A stretch of 50,601 nt of DNA from Sporisorium sorghi (Eukaryota; Basidiomycota; Ustilaginomycetes; Ustilaginales; Ustilaginaceae): the NCBI GenBank assembly GCA_023212695.1, contig JALCCG010000157.1:1-50601 (forward strand), written 5' to 3'. How positions within the stretch are numbered: the first letter of the stretch is position 1; the number at the start of each line of letters is the position of its first letter. Under the pieces are notes generated by a model that worked only from the letters and a program-made list of their open reading frames with translations, was not told where the DNA came from and searched no databases. Shown here piece by piece: positions 3,163-31,154 of this stretch. The position numbers and the translations under genes were made by a program.

Positions 3163-4905
3163 ATGGCGACGACTTCTTCATCACAAGCCTCATCATCGCG
3201 GCTCGCCGATTCAGGCGACACAGATGCCTTTCCCACCATGTCGGCCACCTCGCTCGAGGGCAAGCGACGCGGCAGCTTTGGTCAGGGCACGCCACGCAAA
3301 CCCGTCTCGCGCAGCAAGAAGGCCGTCGCTGCTGTCACGGGTGCCGTTACCACTTCGTTTCTCATGACACCGTTTGATGTCATCAAGACAAGGTTGCAGA
3401 CGCAGGCTAGTGCTGAGCCACTGTTCTTTCCGTCGCAGCACCTGGCTTCGGTTTCAGGCCCGCTGCCGGCATCGACATCGATATCGGGGTCGAACAAGGG
3501 CAAGGGTAAAGGTGTTGTGCGAGGATCATCATCAGGCTTGGCTTCAGGAGCGATGCAAGCTCATCCAGCAACATGTTGCCAGCAGACGTTTTTCAGTTCG
3601 AATCGACAGCCAGAGTCGATCTTGTGCCGGTACGACCCACGCCGGGCCTCGTCTTCGTCCACGACGGCATCGACACCAGCAGCTTCTTCATCTGCATTCT
3701 TCACACCGGCATCATCATCGAAAACTCCGTCAACACGATCGTCAGCGCCACGAACCACATCGACGCGCTTCGGTCGCCACACCACCTCGTTTGCCCCATC
3801 CCCGACTCCGCCTCGATCGAGCGTCCGCGTGCTGCCGTCGCCGCCACCTGCACCTGTGGGATACATGCACCCAACCCCGTCGGCAGTCACGGCGAACGGC
3901 TCGTCCTCGTGCGCGTGTGCGTTTCCGGACTCGACCGTCGCTGCGCGCGAGCTCAAAGCCGCCGCTGCCAAGCAGGGCCGCCTGACAGGTCTGTGGGATG
4001 GCGTGATCAAAGTTGGTCGAGCCGAGGGCGTGCGCGGGCTGTGGCGCGGGCTGGCACCTACGTTGATGATGACGGTGCCGGGGCAAGTGACGTACATGTC
4101 GTGCTATGACTTCTTCCGTACGGCTCTGCTGGCGTCGGAGGATACGGGGCGGGTGCAGGCTGCCTTCGCGCAGGATTCAGCGGCGAATGGGCGCGAGCTC
4201 GGGCTGGCGGGCAAAACCCCGTCATTGTCGGCGGTGACTGCGCAGTCGCTCTACGCGTCCCTGCTTGCTGGTGCGCTTGCTCGCGGGCTATCAGCGACAC
4301 TCGTGACGCCGCTCGAGCTGATCCGCACGCGGCTGCAGGCGTCATCGCGCGCCCAGGCGAGCCTCTCGAGCATCCTGCGCGGTTTGTGGGTCGAGATGCG
4401 CACCACGCAGTTGCGCAGTGGCGGTGGCCCGCTGATTCTGTGGCGCGGGCTGACGCCGACGCTGTGGAGGGACGTGCCGTTCAGCGCGATCTACTTTGCG
4501 GGGTACGAGGCGACCAAGCGCTCGCTCACGGGCGGCGGGCTGGGCGAAGGCAATGCGTCCGGCAGCGGCGAGGAGTTCGGTGTGGCGTTTGTAGCGGGTG
4601 CGCTGTCGGGCAGCTTTGCAGCGGTCGTGACGCACCCGTTTGACGTGGTCAAGACGCGCCTCCAGACGCAGGGTTCCGGGAGAGAGGTCGAAGGGAGGCT
4701 GTCCGGCTCGCTGCGTGGAGCGGGCAGCGCGCAGACGCACAGCGGGAATGTGTGGGCCGCTATGCGGAGCATTGTCAAGAGCGAGGGGAGCAAGGGGCTG
4801 TGGAAAGGGCTCACTCCGAGGACGGCTAAGGTGGCGCCGGCGTGCGGCGTCATGATTGCGAGCTTTGAGGTTGTGGGTCGGGCGTTGGCGGATTTGGATA
4901 TCTGA
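3163..4905 (+). CDS. MTM1: Mitochondrial carrier, Mtm1/SLC25A39-40 type, 580 aa
   Basis: This is an inner-membrane SLC25 carrier with three repeats. The signature motifs are PFDVIKTRLQTQ near residue 70, TPLELIRTRLQ near 382 and HPFDVVKTRLQTQ near 490. The Mtm1 class is indicated by VPGQVTYMSCYDFFR, LWRGLTPTLWRDVPFSAIYF, and PRTAKVAPACGVMIASFE at the C-terminus. Members (SLC25A39/40, yeast Mtm1) are linked to mitochondrial glutathione import and earlier to manganese delivery to Sod2. After the first signature a long matrix-loop insert of about 180 residues is Ser/Thr/Pro-rich and contains Cys pairs (TCCQQ near residue 136, SILC, and CACAF near 247). Such a Cys-bearing loop is the known sensor and regulatory region in SLC25A39. 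The start at 3163 sits in a good context (AACATGGCG). No intron is needed. Its 3' end converges with HEH1, 255 bp away. Confidence 0.85.
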   Translation: MATTSSSQASSSRLADSGDTDAFPTMSATSLEGKRRGSFGQGTPRKPVSRSKKAVAAVTGAVTTSFLMTPFDVIKTRLQTQASAEPLFFPSQHLASVSGPLPASTSISGSNKGKGKGVVRGSSSGLASGAMQAHPATCCQQTFFSSNRQPESILCRYDPRRASSSSTTASTPAASSSAFFTPASSSKTPSTRSSAPRTTSTRFGRHTTSFAPSPTPPRSSVRVLPSPPPAPVGYMHPTPSAVTANGSSSCACAFPDSTVAARELKAAAAKQGRLTGLWDGVIKVGRAEGVRGLWRGLAPTLMMTVPGQVTYMSCYDFFRTALLASEDTGRVQAAFAQDSAANGRELGLAGKTPSLSAVTAQSLYASLLAGALARGLSATLVTPLELIRTRLQASSRAQASLSSILRGLWVEMRTTQLRSGGGPLILWRGLTPTLWRDVPFSAIYFAGYEATKRSLTGGGLGEGNASGSGEEFGVAFVAGALSGSFAAVVTHPFDVVKTRLQTQGSGREVEGRLSGSLRGAGSAQTHSGNVWAAMRSIVKSEGSKGLWKGLTPRTAKVAPACGVMIASFEVVGRALADLDI

Positions 4906-21190: not shown

Positions 21191-21816
21191 CTTGTCGAAG
21201 ACAGTCTACCACGACCTCGAGCAGGTACGCGGAGGACACAAAGCTGCTGGCGTAGACAGACTGAGCATCTGGAAGAGAGGGCCTGCTGGATCATCAAAGC
21301 GAACATCGCGCGATAGAGGAACTTGTCAGTCATTCTGCTGCTCCGTCCAACATCGGTGTCCTCTCCGCAATTGCTGCCGCTTCCATGTGTGATCAGCCAA
21401 AAATAGGCAATAAAGTGGTTGTCCTCTGACCCTCTAAGCTGATTCGGCTTACAGGTGTATCGGATCAGGTCTGTGAAAGTGTTTCTCATCCTTTGAGACA
21501 CGGAAGGGCGAGGCGCACGGCGATGAAGCTGGAGTACTTACTTGTGTGACGATAGAAAAAGGCGAAGTGCAGCCGGAATGAAGTGGATGATGTTGGAGGA
21601 GAAGAAAGAAGGGATCGTCAAAACAAGAAGAGCGAGCGCACGTCAAATTCTTCACCTGGGAGCAATTCTCACACGAGATATACTCTCGCACGAGAATGAT
21701 GAGTCACGTCCATCCCGTAAGTGTACGGAGGCTAGTATATATACTAGCCTCCTAGATCCCTGCATCCGAAATTGATCTCGTTACTTCCGTCAGCTCACGC
21801 ATATAGCTTGAGTATT
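21191..21816. other. Intergenic region between GPI1 and Fanzor remnant
   Basis: No gene is visible. It holds the GPI1 promoter and, at 21727-21752, a perfect palindrome. The part from about 21,700 rightward probably belongs to the mobile island. Confidence 0.5.
21727..21752. repeat. Perfect 26-bp palindrome next to Fanzor 3' end
   Basis: The half-site GGAGGCTAGTATA is followed directly by its exact reverse complement, with no loop. It lies 65 bp beyond the Fanzor stop codon, on the side where Fanzor/TnpB guide RNAs and element ends are found. A second small overlapping inverted repeat (CCGTA/TACGG) is at 21715-21728. It may be an element terminus, a target-site feature or an RNA hairpin. Confidence 0.7.
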
Positions 21817-24029
21817 TTAGAACAGGAAACTGCTACAAATTTGCGAATCTCTACGAGAGCGAGTCGGGCGTTCACCTCTGAGCCACGACAGGCTGGCGTG
21901 AATTGCACTGAAAAGCACGCTCACATCCCTTTGCACATGGCTGGTGGTCAATGCCACCCAAGCCGCCAGCTGCCAGCCGGTTGTATCTGGTGGTGGTGTG
22001 GAGACTATAGTGTGTGGCATCTGACTGCCGAGCATGTTGTAGGCGCCGTTGTGGTCGCGGTCAGACACATAGCAACAGTGCAAACAATCAAAGTGACGAC
22101 TGGAGCCGAGGCTGTGATTGAGCTCACCGCAAGTGCCACACGTCTTGGAAGTGTATGCTTTGGGCTGGATGAGCAGGACGGTGGGCCTGGACTTGTGATG
22201 GTAGCGCGCATCGACTGAAACATCAAAGCACTTTACGGCAAGGTGGTTGATGAAGGCAATACGGCCCCAGCCGAGGAGCCTTTGTCGAGTCGAACGAGCG
22301 AGCGAGCAGCCTCTTCTGTGGCGACGGATCATTTGCCTGACCTCCATCCTCAGCATGATGATGACATCTGAGGAGGAGGCAAGGAAGTTGGCTGCTCGAC
22401 AATGCAGGTCGGTGACTAGGTTGTGAATATGCTTTTGTAGCCTCTTTGAGCGCTTGAGGAGCTTGTGCCTTTCGCTCGAGGAGAGAGCATACGGCACAAG
22501 TGGCGGATGCTCGTGCGGTGGGTGTGGTGGGCGGTGTGGTGGACATACAGGCTGGGGTGGATGCGGCGGCTGTGCTGGCTGCGGTGGATGACCCTGGCGA
22601 TGGGTGTGCTGAAGCTGAGGTCGATGTGGTTGAGGAGTGCGAGGAGGATGAGCACAAGGAGGATGAGCGCACTCGGGGCTGTGCAGGAAACGGAGAGGGC
22701 GGGAGTGACTGCCTTTGCGAGCGGCGACTCTGCAGCTTGGCATCCTGTCTGCGAAGTTCCTCAAGCCGAGCACCATCCTCAACACATCTGACATCCATCG
22801 CTGTGCCAGTGGAGCTGTCCCACACTGACAATGGGGTGGAGACACTGGGATCAGCCGACTTGATGGTGATAGGGCCTGTCAGTACAAGGGCAAAAGGAAT
22901 GAATGTCAATACTATTCCATGACTCAAAACGAGCAGAACTAGCAGTGGATTAGAGCTAACTTACCTTCAAAGAGGTGTTCTCGAGCTTGGAGGGTCGAGG
23001 CAGGGATGTCGAAAGGGAAGAGAAGGTGCCACTGTCCATAGCAATCAAGCTGTATGCCCCATTCATGGTGAATTTCATACTTGGTGGATCTGGCCAAGGG
23101 TTTGGGCAGACACTTGTCACGCAAGAAGCGCCTCTGTGCCTGGCCACATAGATGAATCTTCACCAGGGTGTCCAACGTTGTACCACCAGCTTTTGTGACA
23201 CACCTTGGAGCCAGCTGGAGCTTCATGTCGATGATCTTGTCACCCTCCATGCGGAACTGAATGGAACCTGCATCTTTTGCAAAGTAGAGAGAAAAGCTGT
23301 GCCATGTGTCCTTGGCTTTCGTTCTTGGAGAAATGGCATGCAGGTTGTCATTTTGCGTAATGAGAGATTTTCGAGCCTCGACGGTGGGATCAACAGCAGA
23401 GCGGCGGGTCTGTGATGGGCATTTTTTGAGGAAGCGGTGTTTCTTTACGAAATTGCTGTTGTTGTTGCAAATGATGGTATACAGATCTTTTTCATCTGGC
23501 AGTCACTGTGTTGTTCGATGTGGTTGACATGGTGTAGTGCCCGATTGAACGAGATGTTTGCACAACTGCTCCACTCATGCAAGATCTCCTTGAGCTTGGT
23601 AGAGGGTTTCAAGTGATACTTGTGTGTGCGGAGGTTGGTGATTGGTGGCTTGGCTACGCTTGCAGCAGAAGTGGTGGTGGTGGTGGTGGCAACGGCAACG
23701 GCAGGAGCAGGCTCAGAAGGTTTGGCAAGTGCGGCCTTGACCTGGTCTCCAAGGTCTGCAGGCTCAAGCTGGCCGCAATCTGTTGGAAATGTTGTATCTT
23801 CCCGCTCAATCATGGTTGTTGAGGCAAACGGCCAGGAGATGGGGATATATGTGTTGCTAGTCAGACCGGGATACGAAAACGTCGATGTGGTGGTCTGAAC
23901 CCAGCAGCGCTCAAGCACGGTGTTTGTTGGACGGTTGTGATTGATGATAGCCCAAACCTCCTCGGAGGGTGGGATGAGGTGGTGGTACAGGTCAGCGAGG
24001 TTCGTGTCATAGAAAGCTTGAGTGCTCAA
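21817..24029 (-). pseudogene. Decayed Fanzor (eukaryotic TnpB-like RNA-guided nuclease)
   Basis: Pieces in order on the minus strand. (1) 23813-~23500: ATG at 23813, Thr/Ala-rich leader, then a TnpB-like N-terminus (RTHKYHLKPSTKLKEILHEW, CANISFNRALHHVNHI). The frame stays open upstream to 24029 without an ATG. (2) ~23500-22965, frame changed: NFVKKHRFLKKCPSQTRRSA, FSLYFAKDAGSIQFRMEGDK, IHHEWGIQLDCYGQWHLLFP. (3) A GT-AG intron, 22964-22876. (4) 22875 onward: RuvC-I, IKSADPSVSTPLSVWDSSTG (Asp codon 22850-22852), then RLEELRRQDAKLQSR. (5) A Pro/Ser-rich linker with a second frame change. (6) 22,490-21,817: KRLQKHIHNLVTDLHCRAAN, zinc ribbon SKTCGTCG...FDCLHCCYV, and RuvC-III SDRDHNGAYN. The order matches Fanzor1. 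A Lys (AAA, 22159-22161) sits in PKAYTSKTC where I expect the relocated catalytic Glu. Probably inactive. Confidence 0.8.
22876..22964 (-). other. Predicted 89-nt spliceosomal intron in the Fanzor gene
   Basis: The 5' site reads GAAG|GTAAGT (minus strand) and the 3' site CTGACAG|GCC. Removing it joins a phase-1 codon (G|GC) and makes HLFEG continue into PITIKSADP, placing the RuvC-I motif correctly after the wedge-like region. This supports a host-adapted eukaryotic gene rather than recent bacterial contamination. Confidence 0.7.
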
Positions 24030-24049
24030 GGAGCAATAGTGAGCGCTCT

Positions 24050-25358
24050 TGTTCCTCGAGCGCTCGGGGGTTAAAAAGAAGACCCTCCTCCAACACAGAA
24101 GAACTGGACAGGTTACTTGCAGAATGAGTCAACAGCCAACCAAGCAGGGGAGTTATGGTCAATGGTCATCTGATCAAGCAGCAAGGGCAAATCCTCCAAG
24201 CCAGGCTCAATTCTACCCTCCCTGTGGATCAGCAGCTTGCCTTGAAGTTCTCTAATGGGTGGTTGGTAGAAGTTCTGCAACAGGCACTCATTCAAGCTGC
24301 AGATTGTTCATGGAGAGTCAGGTAGTGTCCAGCAAGACATCATTGACAAGGAGTTGCCAGCACTCAAGCTCCTCATCCAACAATACCATCCTGATGATGT
24401 CTTCAATGCAGATGAAACTGGTCTCTTCTACAATATGCCACCCAACAAGACCATTGGATCATCTCCAGCATCAGGCTTAAAGAAGAACAAGGCCAGGATC
24501 ACCATACTTTTTGCCTGCAACAGCACTGGCACAGGGAAGCTTGATCCTTTCTTCATTGGCCATTCTCAGCAGCCCCATGCCTTCAAGAAACAGAGCCTAG
24601 AGCAGCTTGGGGTCCAGTACTCTGCCAACACAAAAGCCTGGATGACCAGCTCACTTTTCCAGACCTGGCTCTCCTCCCTGGACACCTACATTGGTCAGAC
24701 TCCTGGCAGACATATACTGCTTCTTTTGGACAACTTCTCTGGTCATGGGACGCCTCAAAAGCCATTGACAGGGCTGCAAAACATCACCATCCACTTTCTG
24801 CCTCCAAACACCACCTCAAGAATCCAACCACTTGATGCTGGGATCATTGCCTCCTTCAAGAAGCACTACAGAACCAGACAATATGGCATGGCACTTTTGG
24901 AAGCAGAACTTGGCAGCAAGGACATCTACAAGCTGGACATCCTCACAGCCATGAGGCTCTCTCAGCAGATCTGGAAGGAGCTTGGTCCCAACATCATTGG
25001 GAATTGCTGGAGACATACTGGCTTTGGTTGATTGGGAGGGGGAAGAGGCAACTGCAGAAGGTGATCTGGCTGTAGAACAGCGGCTGGAGGTGTCTATCAG
25101 GCGGCTAACAGAGGTAAGGAGGAGGAGGAGGAGGAGGAGGATGGTGATGCAGACATGGAGGAAAGTATGGATTTCTGTACTCCCCCTCCCCCCACATCTT
25201 CAGGGAAGTGCACAGCTGCTACAGAGGAGCCTCAAGCAGGTGTAGAAGAGCAGCTCAAAGCCCTGAGGCTAACTCAAGACATCTTCACCAGGCAAGGTCT
25301 TCTGACTCCAGATCTTCAAGCTGCATTCACTCATTGCATGGCCAATCTTAGCATTTGA
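24050..25358 (+). pseudogene. Decayed pogo/Tigger-type DDD transposase
   Basis: A DDE_1-superfamily transposase with all three acidic residues readable: NADETGLFYN (first Asp), LLLDNFSGHG (second) and SRIQPLDAGI (third, pogo-type DDxD). The N-terminal CENP-B-like part is recognisable (HLIKQQGQILQARLNSTL, KFSNGWL, NRHSFKLQIVHGESGSVQQD), but it is broken. A TGA at 24125-24127 sits where LLAE-W-VNSQ is expected, and a one-base shift lies at about 24263-24270. The catalytic core is open from 24270 to 25031. The acidic C-terminal tail (Glu run, then ALRLTQDIFTRQGLLTPDLQ) is reached only through further stops or shifts and ends at 25358. The first helix-turn-helix is missing; the sequence stops being transposase-like at about 24,050, beside the Fanzor start. 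Not functional. Confidence 0.85.
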
Positions 25359-25519
25359 TCATACCTACAATTGACAGAGATAGTCTCCAAAGAAATCTGC
25401 ACAGTCATAGCTGCTCTAGAAGCTGAGATATGATAATATTGAGTGTAAGTCACATTTTTCAGGACACCAGAAATTTTAAAATAAATAATGTGTCATTCAT
25501 TTCAAGAGGTTCGACTGTA
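25359..25519 (+). mobile_element. Right end of pogo-like element: 3' UTR and candidate terminal inverted repeat
   Basis: Read on the minus strand from 25517, the end is CAGTCGAACCTCTTGAAATG, which looks like pogo/Tigger termini (CAGT-GAACCTC type). It is followed outward by TA (25518-25519), the expected target duplication. Sequence composition changes at this point from AT-rich to GC-rich. I could not find a matching left terminal repeat in the window. Confidence 0.6.
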
Positions 25520-27499: not shown

Positions 27500-27572
27500 C
27501 CCGCGTACACAGTTGTAGCTATCGATGGAATTTTCAAAACGCTTTTTATATACATGTAGGGGGGGCGGGGCG

Positions 27573-30500
27573 CTACTTGTTGGCCTGGGCCTCTTCTTTG
27601 ACAAAGTACTTCCACGGCTGGACTTCGGAGGGGATCTTGCCCTCCTCGTAGCCGCGCAGGCAGCCGTGCGGCATCCTGGCCGCCAAAGCGTCGACGAACA
27701 GCTCTGCGGAGCGCGCCTCGTTGAGCAGCGGGATGCCGAAGTCCACCGCGTTGCGGCGGGCGACGTAGTCCTGGTCGAGCAGATCGCGGCCGCGGAACTT
27801 GGCGAGGTTGATGACAATGTTGATCTCGTGCTCGTCGAAAACCTCGCGCAGCTTGCGCTTGTCCTTAACGGGGAAGCGGATGCGCTTGGCGCGCACGCCA
27901 TCGAGACCGTTGAGGAACTCCTCGACCTCCGCGTCCGAGCAGTAGAGCTTGAAACCCAAGTCAAAGAGCTTCTTGGCAATACGAGCCAGCTGGGGCTTCT
28001 CGATGTCTCCACCCATCAGCACGCCAGTGTTGGCCTGCGGCACGCGGAACGCCGTCTGCGACGCAATGCTCGCCCACGCCGCCTCGTACAGGTCCTTACC
28101 GAACGAAGCCACCTCGCCCGTCGACGCCATCTCCACACCCAGGTACGGATCCGCACCCGCCAAGCGCGTCCACGAGAACTGCGGCACCTTGATCGCCACA
28201 TAGTCCCTCTCCTGCGCCATCAGGTCCACCGGCTCCGGCACGTCCTTGCCCACAATCGCATTCGTCGCAATGTCGATAAAGTTAACGCCCAGCACCTTGG
28301 ACACGAAGGGGAACGATCGCGACGCACGCAGGTTGCACTCGATCACCTTGAGCGCCGCCTCGGACTCGCCCTCGGCGGTGGGCTTGCGGATCACCTGCAT
28401 GTTGAACGGCCCGCTGATGTTGAACGCCTTGGCCACTTTTTGCGCGATGACCTTCAAGCGGGCCAGGTCGTTCGGGTCGAGCGAGAACGGCGGCAGCACC
28501 AGCGTGGCATCGCCCGAGTGCACTCCGGCGTTCTCGACGTGCTCCGAAACGGCGTGGACGAGCAGCTCGCCCTTGTACGCCACGGCATCGACGTCGATCT
28601 CCTGCGCATTGTCGATAAACTTGGAGACGACGACGGGGTAGTCGGTGTTGACCTCGGCCGCGGCGGTGAGGTGGTGCTCGAGCGTCGATTCGTCCCAGAT
28701 CACATTCATGGCCGCACCGGAGAGCACGTACGACGGACGCACCAGCACGGGGTACGACACCCGAGCAGCGAACTCCTTGGCCTTCTCCACCGACGTCGCC
28801 TCGGTCCACTCGGGCTGGTCAACGCCCACATTGTCGAGGATCTGCGAGAACTTGTGCCTGTCCTCAGCCGAGTCGATCATGAGCGGGTCCGTGCCCAACA
28901 CATTCACGCCCGTCGCCTTGAGTCGCAGCGCAATGTTCTGCGGCAGCTGTCCACCGACACTCACCACCACGCCGGTGGCGCCCTCGAGCTCGTAGATGTC
29001 CATGACGCGCTCGAAGCCGAGCTCCTCGAAGTAGAGGCGGTCGGCCTCGTCAAAGTCGGTCGAGACGGTCTCCGGGTTGTAGTTGACCATGATGGTCTTG
29101 TGGCCCATGCCGCGCACCTTGCGGGCGCACGTGACGGCGCACCAGTCGAACTCGACCGAGCTGCCGATACGGTAAACGCCCGAACCGAGCACCATGGTGC
29201 CGTCGTTGTCAAACTCGACGTCGTGCGTGGTGGCGTTGTAGGTGGTGTAGAGGTAGTTGGTCTGCGCGGGGTACTCGGCGGCGACGGTGTCGATGCGCTT
29301 GACAAAGGGGGTGAGGCCGAACGCCTTGCGGTGGGCGCGCACCTCGTGCTCCTTGGCGTTGGTGAGCTTGGCGATCTGACGGTCCGAAAAGCCGCGCTGC
29401 TTGGCGAGCTTCATGAGCTCCTTGTCGACGGCCGAGAGCCAGCCGAGCTTCTCGAGCTGGCGGTTGATGGTGACGATGTTCTCGAGCTTGTAGAGGAAGA
29501 AGCGGTCGATCTTGGTGAGGTCGTGCAGCTTCTCGACCGAGTAGTCCTCGACGAGCATGGCGTAGGCGATGGCAAAGAGACGCGTGTCCGTGGGCACGGA
29601 GAGAGCGTGGTCGAGGTCCTCGGGCACAGTGTATGCATCGAAACCGTCGTAGGCCGGGGCGACCTGTCGGATGGCCTTCTGGAGCGACTCCTCAAAGGTG
29701 CGTCCAACGGACATGACCTCGCCGACCGACTTCATGGACGAGCCGACCTCGCGGTTGACGTGCTGGAACTTGCCCAAGTCCCACTTGGGGATCTTGGTGA
29801 CAATGTAGTCGAGCGCGGGCTCGAAGCAGGCGGTGGTGCTCTTGGTGACGGCGTTGGGCAGCTCGGGGAGCGTGTATCCGAGAGCGAGCTTGGCAGCCGT
29901 GTAGGCCAGAGGGTAGCCGGTGGCCTTGGAGGCGAGCGCCGAGGAACGCGAGAGACGGGGGTTGACCTCGATCACACGGTACTCTCGGCTGTCCGGGCTG
30001 AGGGCGTACTGGATGTTGCACTCGCCGACGATGCCGAGGTGACGGATGACCTTGAGGGCAGCAGATCGGAGCATGTGGTAGTTGTCGTCCGAGAGGGTCT
30101 GGGAGGGAGCGACGACGATCGAGTCACCGGTGTGGATGCCCAGAGGGTCAAAGTTCTCCATGTTGCAGCAGATGATGGCGTTGTCCTCCTGGTCACGGAG
30201 CACCTCGTACTCGGACTCCTTCCAGCCCTTGAGCGACTTCTCGACGAGGATCTGCGGGCTGAGCGAGAGCGAGCGGGCGGACAGGTCACGCAGCTCGTCC
30301 TCGTTGTCCGCGAAACCGGAGCCGAGACCACCAAGCGCGTAAGCGGCACGGACGATGACGGGGTAGCCGATCTCGGCGGCGGCCTTGAGCGCCTGGGGCA
30401 CGGTGGAGACGGCCTCGGACTTGGCGACGGGGATGTTGATCTGGTCGAGCGCCTGGACGAAGAGGTCGCGGTCCTCGCACATGCGGAGGACGTCGACCTG

Positions 30501-31154
30501 GGAACCGAGCACCTTGACGCCGAGGCGGTCAAAGACGCCCATCTCGTCGAGCTTGACACCGACGTTGAGGGCACTCTGACCGCCAAAGGTGAGCAGGACA
30601 CCGTCGGGGCGCTCCTTTTCGAGGACGTAGGCGACGTACTCGGGGGAGATGGGGAGCAAGTAGATCTGGCTGGCGAGTTGATGCGAGGTCTGGATGGTTG
30701 CGATATTTGGGTTGATGAGGATGGTCTCGATGCCCGACTCCTTGAGCGCCTTGATGGCCTGCGAACCGGAGTAGTCGAACTCACCGGCCTGGCCGATGGA
30801 GAGACCACCAGAGCCGACGAGGACGACCTTCTTGACGTCGGAGCGCTCGACCTTGGGGAGGTACTTGCTCCATTTTTGGAGACCCGTAGCGGCGGGCTCG
30901 ATGTGCTTGACGGCAGCGCCAGCGACGGGGCAAGGCGTGGGTTCCTTGAGGAGCGCCGAGGTGGAGAATCGCGAGCGGAAGACCTGGCTGCCCGAGGTAG
31001 CGAGGAGGAGGGTCTTGCGATTCAACGAGGCGGCGGTTGCGGCTTGGCTGTGAAGGTTGCGAGCCGCGAGGGGCAGCTGCGAGGTGGAAGCCACCTGCGA
31101 AGAGGCTGAGGCCGAGTTGGCGCCTCGAGAGAAGGCGCGGATGCTTCGGTACAT
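27573..31154 (-). CDS. CPA2: Carbamoyl-phosphate synthase (arginine-specific), large subunit, mitochondrial, 1193 aa
   Basis: Synthesises carbamoyl phosphate from bicarbonate, ATP and ammonia delivered by the Cpa1 glutaminase subunit (not in this window), for arginine synthesis. Residues 1-70 are rich in Arg, Ser and Ala without acidic residues, as expected for a mitochondrial targeting peptide. The duplicated synthetase halves are clear. The first has GSGGLSIGQAGEFDYSGSQA near residue 113 and RLSRSSALASKATGYPLAY. The second has VLGSGVYRIGSSVEFDW near 653, and VIECNLRASRSFPFVSKVLG. A C-terminal MGS-like allosteric domain begins near 1050 (GVLMGGDIEKPQLARIAKKL). Full length and uninterrupted. 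It stands alone without glutaminase or ATCase domains, which separates it from the pyrimidine-pathway fusion enzyme. Confidence 0.95.
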   Translation of the reverse strand: MYRSIRAFSRGANSASASSQVASTSQLPLAARNLHSQAATAASLNRKTLLLATSGSQVFRSRFSTSALLKEPTPCPVAGAAVKHIEPAATGLQKWSKYLPKVERSDVKKVVLVGSGGLSIGQAGEFDYSGSQAIKALKESGIETILINPNIATIQTSHQLASQIYLLPISPEYVAYVLEKERPDGVLLTFGGQSALNVGVKLDEMGVFDRLGVKVLGSQVDVLRMCEDRDLFVQALDQINIPVAKSEAVSTVPQALKAAAEIGYPVIVRAAYALGGLGSGFADNEDELRDLSARSLSLSPQILVEKSLKGWKESEYEVLRDQEDNAIICCNMENFDPLGIHTGDSIVVAPSQTLSDDNYHMLRSAALKVIRHLGIVGECNIQYALSPDSREYRVIEVNPRLSRSSALASKATGYPLAYTAAKLALGYTLPELPNAVTKSTTACFEPALDYIVTKIPKWDLGKFQHVNREVGSSMKSVGEVMSVGRTFEESLQKAIRQVAPAYDGFDAYTVPEDLDHALSVPTDTRLFAIAYAMLVEDYSVEKLHDLTKIDRFFLYKLENIVTINRQLEKLGWLSAVDKELMKLAKQRGFSDRQIAKLTNAKEHEVRAHRKAFGLTPFVKRIDTVAAEYPAQTNYLYTTYNATTHDVEFDNDGTMVLGSGVYRIGSSVEFDWCAVTCARKVRGMGHKTIMVNYNPETVSTDFDEADRLYFEELGFERVMDIYELEGATGVVVSVGGQLPQNIALRLKATGVNVLGTDPLMIDSAEDRHKFSQILDNVGVDQPEWTEATSVEKAKEFAARVSYPVLVRPSYVLSGAAMNVIWDESTLEHHLTAAAEVNTDYPVVVSKFIDNAQEIDVDAVAYKGELLVHAVSEHVENAGVHSGDATLVLPPFSLDPNDLARLKVIAQKVAKAFNISGPFNMQVIRKPTAEGESEAALKVIECNLRASRSFPFVSKVLGVNFIDIATNAIVGKDVPEPVDLMAQERDYVAIKVPQFSWTRLAGADPYLGVEMASTGEVASFGKDLYEAAWASIASQTAFRVPQANTGVLMGGDIEKPQLARIAKKLFDLGFKLYCSDAEVEEFLNGLDGVRAKRIRFPVKDKRKLREVFDEHEINIVINLAKFRGRDLLDQDYVARRNAVDFGIPLLNEARSAELFVDALAARMPHGCLRGYEEGKIPSEVQPWKYFVKEEAQANK

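Follow-up and report, generated by a model that had tools for sequence, protein, structure and literature searches.

Fanzors are eukaryotic RNA-guided nucleases and relatives of CRISPR-type DNA cutters. In a stretch of 50,601 nucleotides from Sporisorium sorghi (contig JALCCG010000157.1; hereafter the window, C69 in our numbering of the contigs of this assembly) a decayed Fanzor copy was found on the minus strand (Table 1). The explanation we favour, at a probability of about 0.87, is that this is a dead, stand-alone copy of a smut Fanzor from the lineage with a DPG motif and a relocated glutamate, that its core is Fanzor2-like and its decay resembles repeat-induced point mutation (RIP), and that a relative on contig C222 is open in the same genome.

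Table 1. Features of the Fanzor copy and of the adjoining transposon remnant (window positions; C288 is the contig with the closest sister copy)
Feature	Position	Strand	Remarks
Decayed Fanzor element copy	21832..24069	-	88% DNA identity to C288; homology stops at both coordinates
Terminal hairpin, 5' end	24020..24065	-	Kept in C288; z = -3.75 (window), -3.74 (C288)
Coding piece 1: remaining N-terminal domain and HTH_OrfB-like start of TnpB core	23514..24014	-	
Coding piece 2: REC/WED part	22966..23502	-	Frame broken between pieces 1 and 2
Intron, 89 bp, GTAAGT...CTGACAG	22876..22964	-	Same in C288
RuvC-I SADPSVSTPLSVWD	22817..22858	-	DPS replaces DPG, also in C288
Coding piece 3: RuvC-II helix, zinc ribbon, RuvC-III (PF07282)	22018..22488	-	Frame differs from RuvC-I
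Codon of relocated RuvC-II glutamate (Ealt)	22159..22161	-	Lysine in window copy
RuvC-III DRDHNGA	22042..22062	-	Intact in window copy; DHNHNGA in C288
Candidate structured 3' RNA, downstream of coding region	21873..22022	-	35 pairs, 5 changed on both sides, 3 sequences
Tigger/pogo-like DDE_1 transposon remnant	24075..25519	+	5' part missing; abuts Fanzor 5' end; CpG observed/expected 0.05

The original prediction, made from the letters alone, had named a TnpB-like N-terminus, SADPSVSTPLSVWD, YTSKTC ahead of a CxxC...CxxC zinc ribbon, and DRDHNGA; all of these were found in that order on the minus strand. The C-terminal piece matched Pfam PF07282 (Cas12f1-like TNB zinc ribbon) at E = 9.5e-12 (45.3 bits, cut-off 26.3), as did five of five relatives (E 1.9e-10 to 3.6e-17), and NCBIfam guided_TnpB at 2.9e-11 (43.3 bits, below a cut-off of 100 that is set for whole proteins), while the N-terminal piece matched HTH_OrfB_IS605 at E = 3.7e-4 (20.4 bits, slightly below the Pfam cut-off of 21). 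A chance match of the domain pieces is excluded. The predicted intron proved real, being identical in C288 and matched by an intron (ends GTAAGT...CAG) at the equivalent position of the C192 copy. Some details had to be revised by alignment to C288. The extent, first given as 21817-24029, was corrected to that in Table 1, and the last ~70 residues of the predicted open reading frame (ORF) are 3' untranslated region read out of frame, because the frame shifts into this region at the coding end. The proposed N-terminal extension is present, but its first part was lost by a 171-bp deletion relative to C288, which also removed the start codon region.

The assembly of this Sporisorium-like smut (23.17 Mb, 469 contigs) was searched with the window protein, the C222 protein and DNA, which gave at least 11 Fanzor loci, namely the window copy, C288, C158, C456, C222, C424, C97, C192, C468, C169 and a fragment on C379. 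The intact relative suspected elsewhere in the genome was found on C222, where a single uninterrupted ORF of 654 aa without an intron is fully open and holds all expected motifs and catalytic residues. C424 stays open over 522 aa until the contig ends, C97 has one frame change, C192 is missing the part with the relocated glutamate and the first cysteines of the zinc ribbon, and C468 and C169 hold C-terminal pieces only. The original prediction of a broken member of the Fanzor family in a smut genome was thereby borne out.

Protein database searches gave at least two relatives among the matches listed; the nearest named relative of C222 among these was a 720-aa protein of Kalmanozyma brasiliensis (P0001), 46% identical over 100% of C222 and paired with it in the tree described below (100/94). 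This protein comes from another smut yeast, of the Ustilaginales, and is filed as 'Transposase IS605, OrfB, C-terminal'. DPG, relocated glutamate and zinc ribbon are kept in five of five proteins or open pieces (C222, C424, C97, C456 and P0001), and therefore the nuclease function of the smut family has, judged from these sequences, probably long been under selection. Between C424 and C97 the ratio of nonsynonymous to synonymous substitution rates (dN/dS) was 0.18 (bootstrap 0.11-0.24; 485 codons, dS near saturation).

We next considered how the window copy and C288 were inactivated. Besides the 5' deletion, the window copy has three further length changes relative to C288 that break its frame: one near 23.5 kb, another in the RuvC-I to RuvC-II linker and a third where the coding region ends. 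The RuvC-I of Fanzors contains DPG, and their relocated glutamate lies six residues ahead of the zinc ribbon (PMC10711439, in part). Both fingerprint features are lost in the window copy (DPG to DPS, glutamate to lysine), which is dead; in the alignment the glutamate is present in C288, C222, C424, C97, C456 and K. brasiliensis. C288 retains this residue, has the RuvC-III aspartate replaced by asparagine, and carries an internal stop codon. The catalytic losses, at a different residue in each copy, are both G-to-A changes next to C, of the CpG type.

The same type of change dominated the whole comparison. The window copy and C288 differed by 170 transitions and 27 transversions over 2113 aligned sites, and the transitions fell by the base after the mutated C into 84 at CpG, 61 at CpA, 14 at CpT and 11 at CpC (rates 0.223, 0.078, 0.024 and 0.020, respectively). 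The window copy and the fragment on C158 gave the same pattern (27 transitions, 5 transversions, CpG rate 0.458), whereas it was absent from the diverged pair C424 and C97 (221 transitions, 228 transversions, CpG rate 0.150 versus 0.100-0.193 elsewhere). CpG observed/expected ratios were 0.66 in the window copy and 0.62 in C288, 0.85-1.41 in five further Fanzor copies for which they were measured, 1.07-1.13 in flanks and one gene, and 0.05 and 0.11 in two Tigger copies; pairs of the latter gave no usable CpG rate because hardly any CpG remains. The dN/dS of the window copy versus C288, 0.47 (0.34-0.67), lies within the range of a neutral CpG-type simulation (0.35-0.81). In Ustilago hordei and U. 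bromivora, loss of CpG in repeats has been read as possible RIP (PMC5106213, in part). The inactivation of the window copy and C288 appears to be largely by C-to-T change at CpG and CpA, a RIP-like pattern.

The original prediction had assigned the copy to Fanzor1, and this assignment is doubtful, since sequence profile, Foldseek and VIA-align all ranked mimivirus Fanzor2 first. With the smut profile, the sequence of the mimivirus structure (9b0l) came up at 5.3e-18, and none of the chains in the Fanzor1 entries (8gkh, 9ce series) did so at E <= 1; the C-terminal smut profile matched none of these chains at E <= 10. The AlphaFold model of C222 showed the WED/REC/RuvC fold of TnpB, and in its Foldseek comparison with known Fanzor structures 9b0l was best (E 2.8e-18, TMt 0.67), with SpuFz1 at E 2.4e-4 to 4.4e-4 and TMt 0.20-0.29. 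An early model from six alignment rows was poor (pLDDT 50), and Foldseek still placed 9b0l first and SpuFz1 22nd. Fanzor1 chains were absent among the best 50 VIA-align rows, which does not by itself exclude kinship. For SpuFz1, a further REC insertion of ~150 aa is described (PMC10432273, in part). The C222 model has ~105 residues between strands 187-195 and 301-305, which we infer to be the first two WED strands, and therefore leaves no room for such an insertion; a large extra REC insertion was not seen, SpuFz1 being the one Fanzor1 compared. The long N-terminal extension and the intron, previously taken as marks of Fanzor1, are not specific to it. In sequence and predicted structure, the smut core resembles Fanzor2 more closely than Fanzor1.

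Mimivirus Fanzor2 (L79) is listed among Fanzor2 (ISvMimi) in Table 1 of PMC3627910, the abstract of which ties Fanzor2 to IS607-type elements. The identity of the smut proteins to L79 is 20%, no tnpA was found with the smut copies, and the smut proteins have a low-confidence stretch between RuvC-I and RuvC-II. PF00239, for the IS607 serine-recombinase TnpA, scored above cut-off only on C211, a contig that looks bacterial, and a tnpA profile built here, which also misses the C211 recombinase, had no match at E < 3 across 12 sequences, namely the window, C211 and 10 from Fanzor loci. The smut loci gave a Fanzor2-like core but no IS607 TnpA within the element, as a canonical IS607-borne Fanzor2 would have, and we therefore assign the copy to neither subtype. 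With the cyanobacterial IS607 'pro-Fanzor' TnpBs (PMC10711439, in part) the smut proteins share DPG, the relocated glutamate and a joint branch; the former are prokaryotic, and 36 of 50 DPG ORFs (cyanobacterial and viral, >= 420 aa, near-copies included) overlap a serine-recombinase-like ORF, whereas none was detected in the smut loci. SpuFz1 and other Fanzor1 proteins (8gkh, 9ce series) are likewise eukaryotic, occur in fungi and share the catalytic logic (PMC10432273, in part). They differ from the smut proteins in the lack of a sequence match and, for SpuFz1, in the weak fold match, the REC insertion and 30-nt inverted repeats (PMC10432273, in part).

For a phylogeny, back-translated protein patterns gave no confirmed viral or prokaryotic relative, and a looser DNA motif succeeded, yielding 24 viral and at least 119 prokaryotic stretches with 99 distinct ORFs. 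Of these, 71 entered the tree and 28 were dropped for a short tail or for having no RuvC-I motif in range; seven rows of smut type and a fragment of mimivirus Fanzor2 brought the tree to 79 rows, none of them a labelled Fanzor1 reference. The smut-type rows, one of them from Kalmanozyma, formed a single clade (100/99). This clade joined 48 DPG rows, mostly cyanobacterial, the mimivirus Fanzor2 on a long branch and one truncated DxG row, and the joint group was separate from the other 22 DxG rows (support 100/91).

Under the favoured explanation, and by analogy with the family, a live element would encode a TnpB-like nuclease. This enzyme would bind a guide RNA derived from the 3' end of its own element and cut DNA matching the sequence that adjoins the element. 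The lineage would lie within the group, marked by DPG and the relocated glutamate, to which both Fanzors and cyanobacterial IS607 TnpBs belong. C-to-T change at CpG and CpA would have disabled the window copy and C288, the window copy being disabled by deletions as well, while diverged low-copy relatives, above all C222, would have remained open in the same genome.

A 3' consensus structure downstream of the coding end was common to the window copy, C288 and C169. As many pairs changed on both sides (5 of 35) were reached by one of 500 shuffles, the structure being derived from the same three sequences, two of them CpG-mutated; sliding the pairing partners lowered pairing from 90.5% to 26.5-45.1%. 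Rfam gave nothing at the gathering threshold in four loci.

Several observations weigh against the explanation given above. A row labelled DxG (L198, a truncated ORF) falls inside the DPG group. The strict regular expression published for Fanzors (PMC10711439), which 47 of the 99 reference ORFs satisfy, fails in five of five smut-type proteins, because their spacing from DPG to E is 173-212 rather than 120-160 and the last cysteine pair of C222 and K. brasiliensis is CxxxxC. The dS between C424 and C97 is 1.5, and simple deamination of methylated DNA, instead of RIP, could account for the loss of CpG. Additionally, we infer a guide RNA and DNA cleavage for the smut family by analogy, and the folding energy of the 3' region is unexceptional (z 0.73 and -0.98). 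Only the window copy and C288 define the element ends; we looked for its true ends, for target duplications and for a transposase, and could show none of them. Among five loci, inverted repeats were absent at C456, C97 and C288, the pair at C192 lies inside the gene, and of the five pairs at C222 two flank the gene but consist of T/A runs; short terminal inverted repeats (TIRs) would be missed by this search. At eight loci other than the window, 20 of the larger ORFs nearby were examined and no transposase was found among them. The GtFz1, NlovFz2 and MmeFz2 loci also seem to be without TIRs and transposase (PMC10432273, in part).

That the copy is a typical Fanzor1 carried by a eukaryotic cut-and-paste transposon, as originally proposed, is unlikely. 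In its favour, the smut family is eukaryotic and has an intron, proteins of 654-720 aa and no IS607 transposase that we could find; Fz1 is also very widespread among fungi, where Fz2 likewise has a broad distribution (PMC10432273, in part). Set against this, the profile, Foldseek and VIA-align results rank mimivirus Fanzor2 and TnpB/Cas12f ahead of all Fanzor1 structures listed, a SpuFz1-type REC insertion does not fit, and convincing TIRs were not seen. It is improbable, too, that at least C222 represents a former Fanzor that was domesticated, with the window copy decaying from a non-mobile gene family. The C222 gene is open, lacks a near copy, has a CpG observed/expected ratio of 0.85 and is flanked by genes for chitin synthase and an ABC transporter, and the 20 neighbouring ORFs searched contained no transposase; yet past mobility is indicated by at least 11 scattered loci, a related copy pair with different flanks, the junction with Tigger and the intact catalytic residues.

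We give almost no weight to the view that a prokaryotic TnpB/IS605 insertion, or contaminating bacterial DNA, was mistaken for fungal sequence, even though the assembly seems to hold a bacterial contig (C211) and the database name of the Kalmanozyma relative refers to IS605. A bacterial origin of the window copy is refuted by the intron and by its position between fungal Gpi1 and carbamoyl-phosphate synthase genes, and the smut-type rows, Kalmanozyma included, fall in one clade. The Gpi1 neighbour shares 78% identity with proteins from two species of Sporisorium and 75% with that of S. graminicola; the other genes of the window are housekeeping genes, e.g. carbamoyl-phosphate synthase, SDA1 and a DEAD-box helicase.

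A further idea, which we hold tentatively and consider possible, somewhat short of even odds, concerns the N-terminal domain (C222 residues ~24-70, 'YPF.DP...LP...TWFDVK', folded). Smut Fanzors may descend from an IS607-type element in which the tnpB frame ran over tnpA, so that this domain would be an overprinted segment, kept after loss of tnpA and shared with mimivirus Fanzor2. The smut N-terminal profile matched a reference sequence (L077) at 2.7e-4, and altogether 17 reference proteins, which are kin and not independent, preceded the first decoy (0.71), 16 of them with an N-terminal stretch. Hhalign gave P 9e-4, a probability of 22.6% and a score of 29.3, above 393 of 400 column shuffles (all <= 20.6); the other seven scored 130-140, and the two inspected were end artefacts of 8-14 columns. 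Once pro-Fanzors joined the alignment, pLDDT of residues 31-70 rose from 24-31 to 83-94, and the VIA-align alignment of 9b0l begins at residue 24. Across 29 non-redundant tnpA genes the tnpB frame had 32 stops versus 131.6 expected from synonymous reshuffling, and the other forward frame 370; 35 of the 36 overlapping DPG ORFs share the same frame offset. Against overprinting, in the reverse profile search C97 (1 of 1000 shuffles as high) and C456 (20 of 1000) scored above almost every shuffle, the other six sequences did not, and a five-row subset gave an hhalign probability of 5%. The ORFs were moreover chosen for length, which biases the stop count. The tnpA profile search found no tnpA vestige in the smut loci. 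We did not find the idea stated in the main text of PMC10711439 or in a wider literature search. As a separate observation, DPG ORFs of the cyanobacterial and viral IS607 type (L056-L198) have the tnpB frame open across most or all of tnpA at a constant offset.

Further observations concern the surroundings of the Fanzor loci. The Tigger remnant is truncated 5' where it meets the Fanzor, and nesting of the Fanzor inside Tigger is unsupported, the missing Tigger 5' part not being found across the Fanzor. A sister Tigger copy on C81 has 30-bp inverted ends, and related 3' ends lie where contigs C202 and C86 stop, so that a Tigger-type repeat probably breaks the assembly. Adjoining the Fanzor 3' end, positions 21655-21815 form a palindrome-rich small dispersed repeat with copies at C135:17530-17663 and C220:10448-10516. 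An 81-bp block 13 bp past the stop codon of the open Fanzor (C222:91318-91398, L012) recurs once, with 98% identity, at C172:18045-18125 (L051), on a contig without any Fanzor match; it folds no better than shuffles, and the C172 site resembles the Fanzor-less 'ghost' loci of SpuFz1 (PMC10432273, in part). Elsewhere in the window, antisense ORFs at 27525-31109 (+, 1194 aa) and 27573-31154 (-, 1193 aa) overlap almost fully, with Pfam matches (carbamoyl-phosphate synthase) for the minus ORF only. On C211, a serine recombinase ORF of 206 aa (3392-3790; L199, L201) is presumably of the bacterial Hin/Tn3 type, and from this single ORF the 127-kb contig looks like bacterial contamination.

Our literature search found no paper joining Fanzor with Ustilaginomycotina; supplementary tables of surveys lay outside this search and may include smut sequences. 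Nor was a paper joining Fanzor with RIP found, and a broader search gave none with Fanzor among the best 20 of 656. The locus is a real decayed Fanzor of a family that is itself already known, with a likely correction of its subtype, and its value is that of a fungal branch, so far little described, within a known enzyme family and not that of a new kind of system. CpG-mutated dead copies together with an open low-copy relative in one genome raise the question of how fungal repeat defence shapes such elements. A Fanzor2-like core without an IS607 transposase adds a fungal data point on TnpB moving from IS607 elsewhere, and if the overprinting idea is true, a gene part born by overprinting would have survived the move into eukaryotes.
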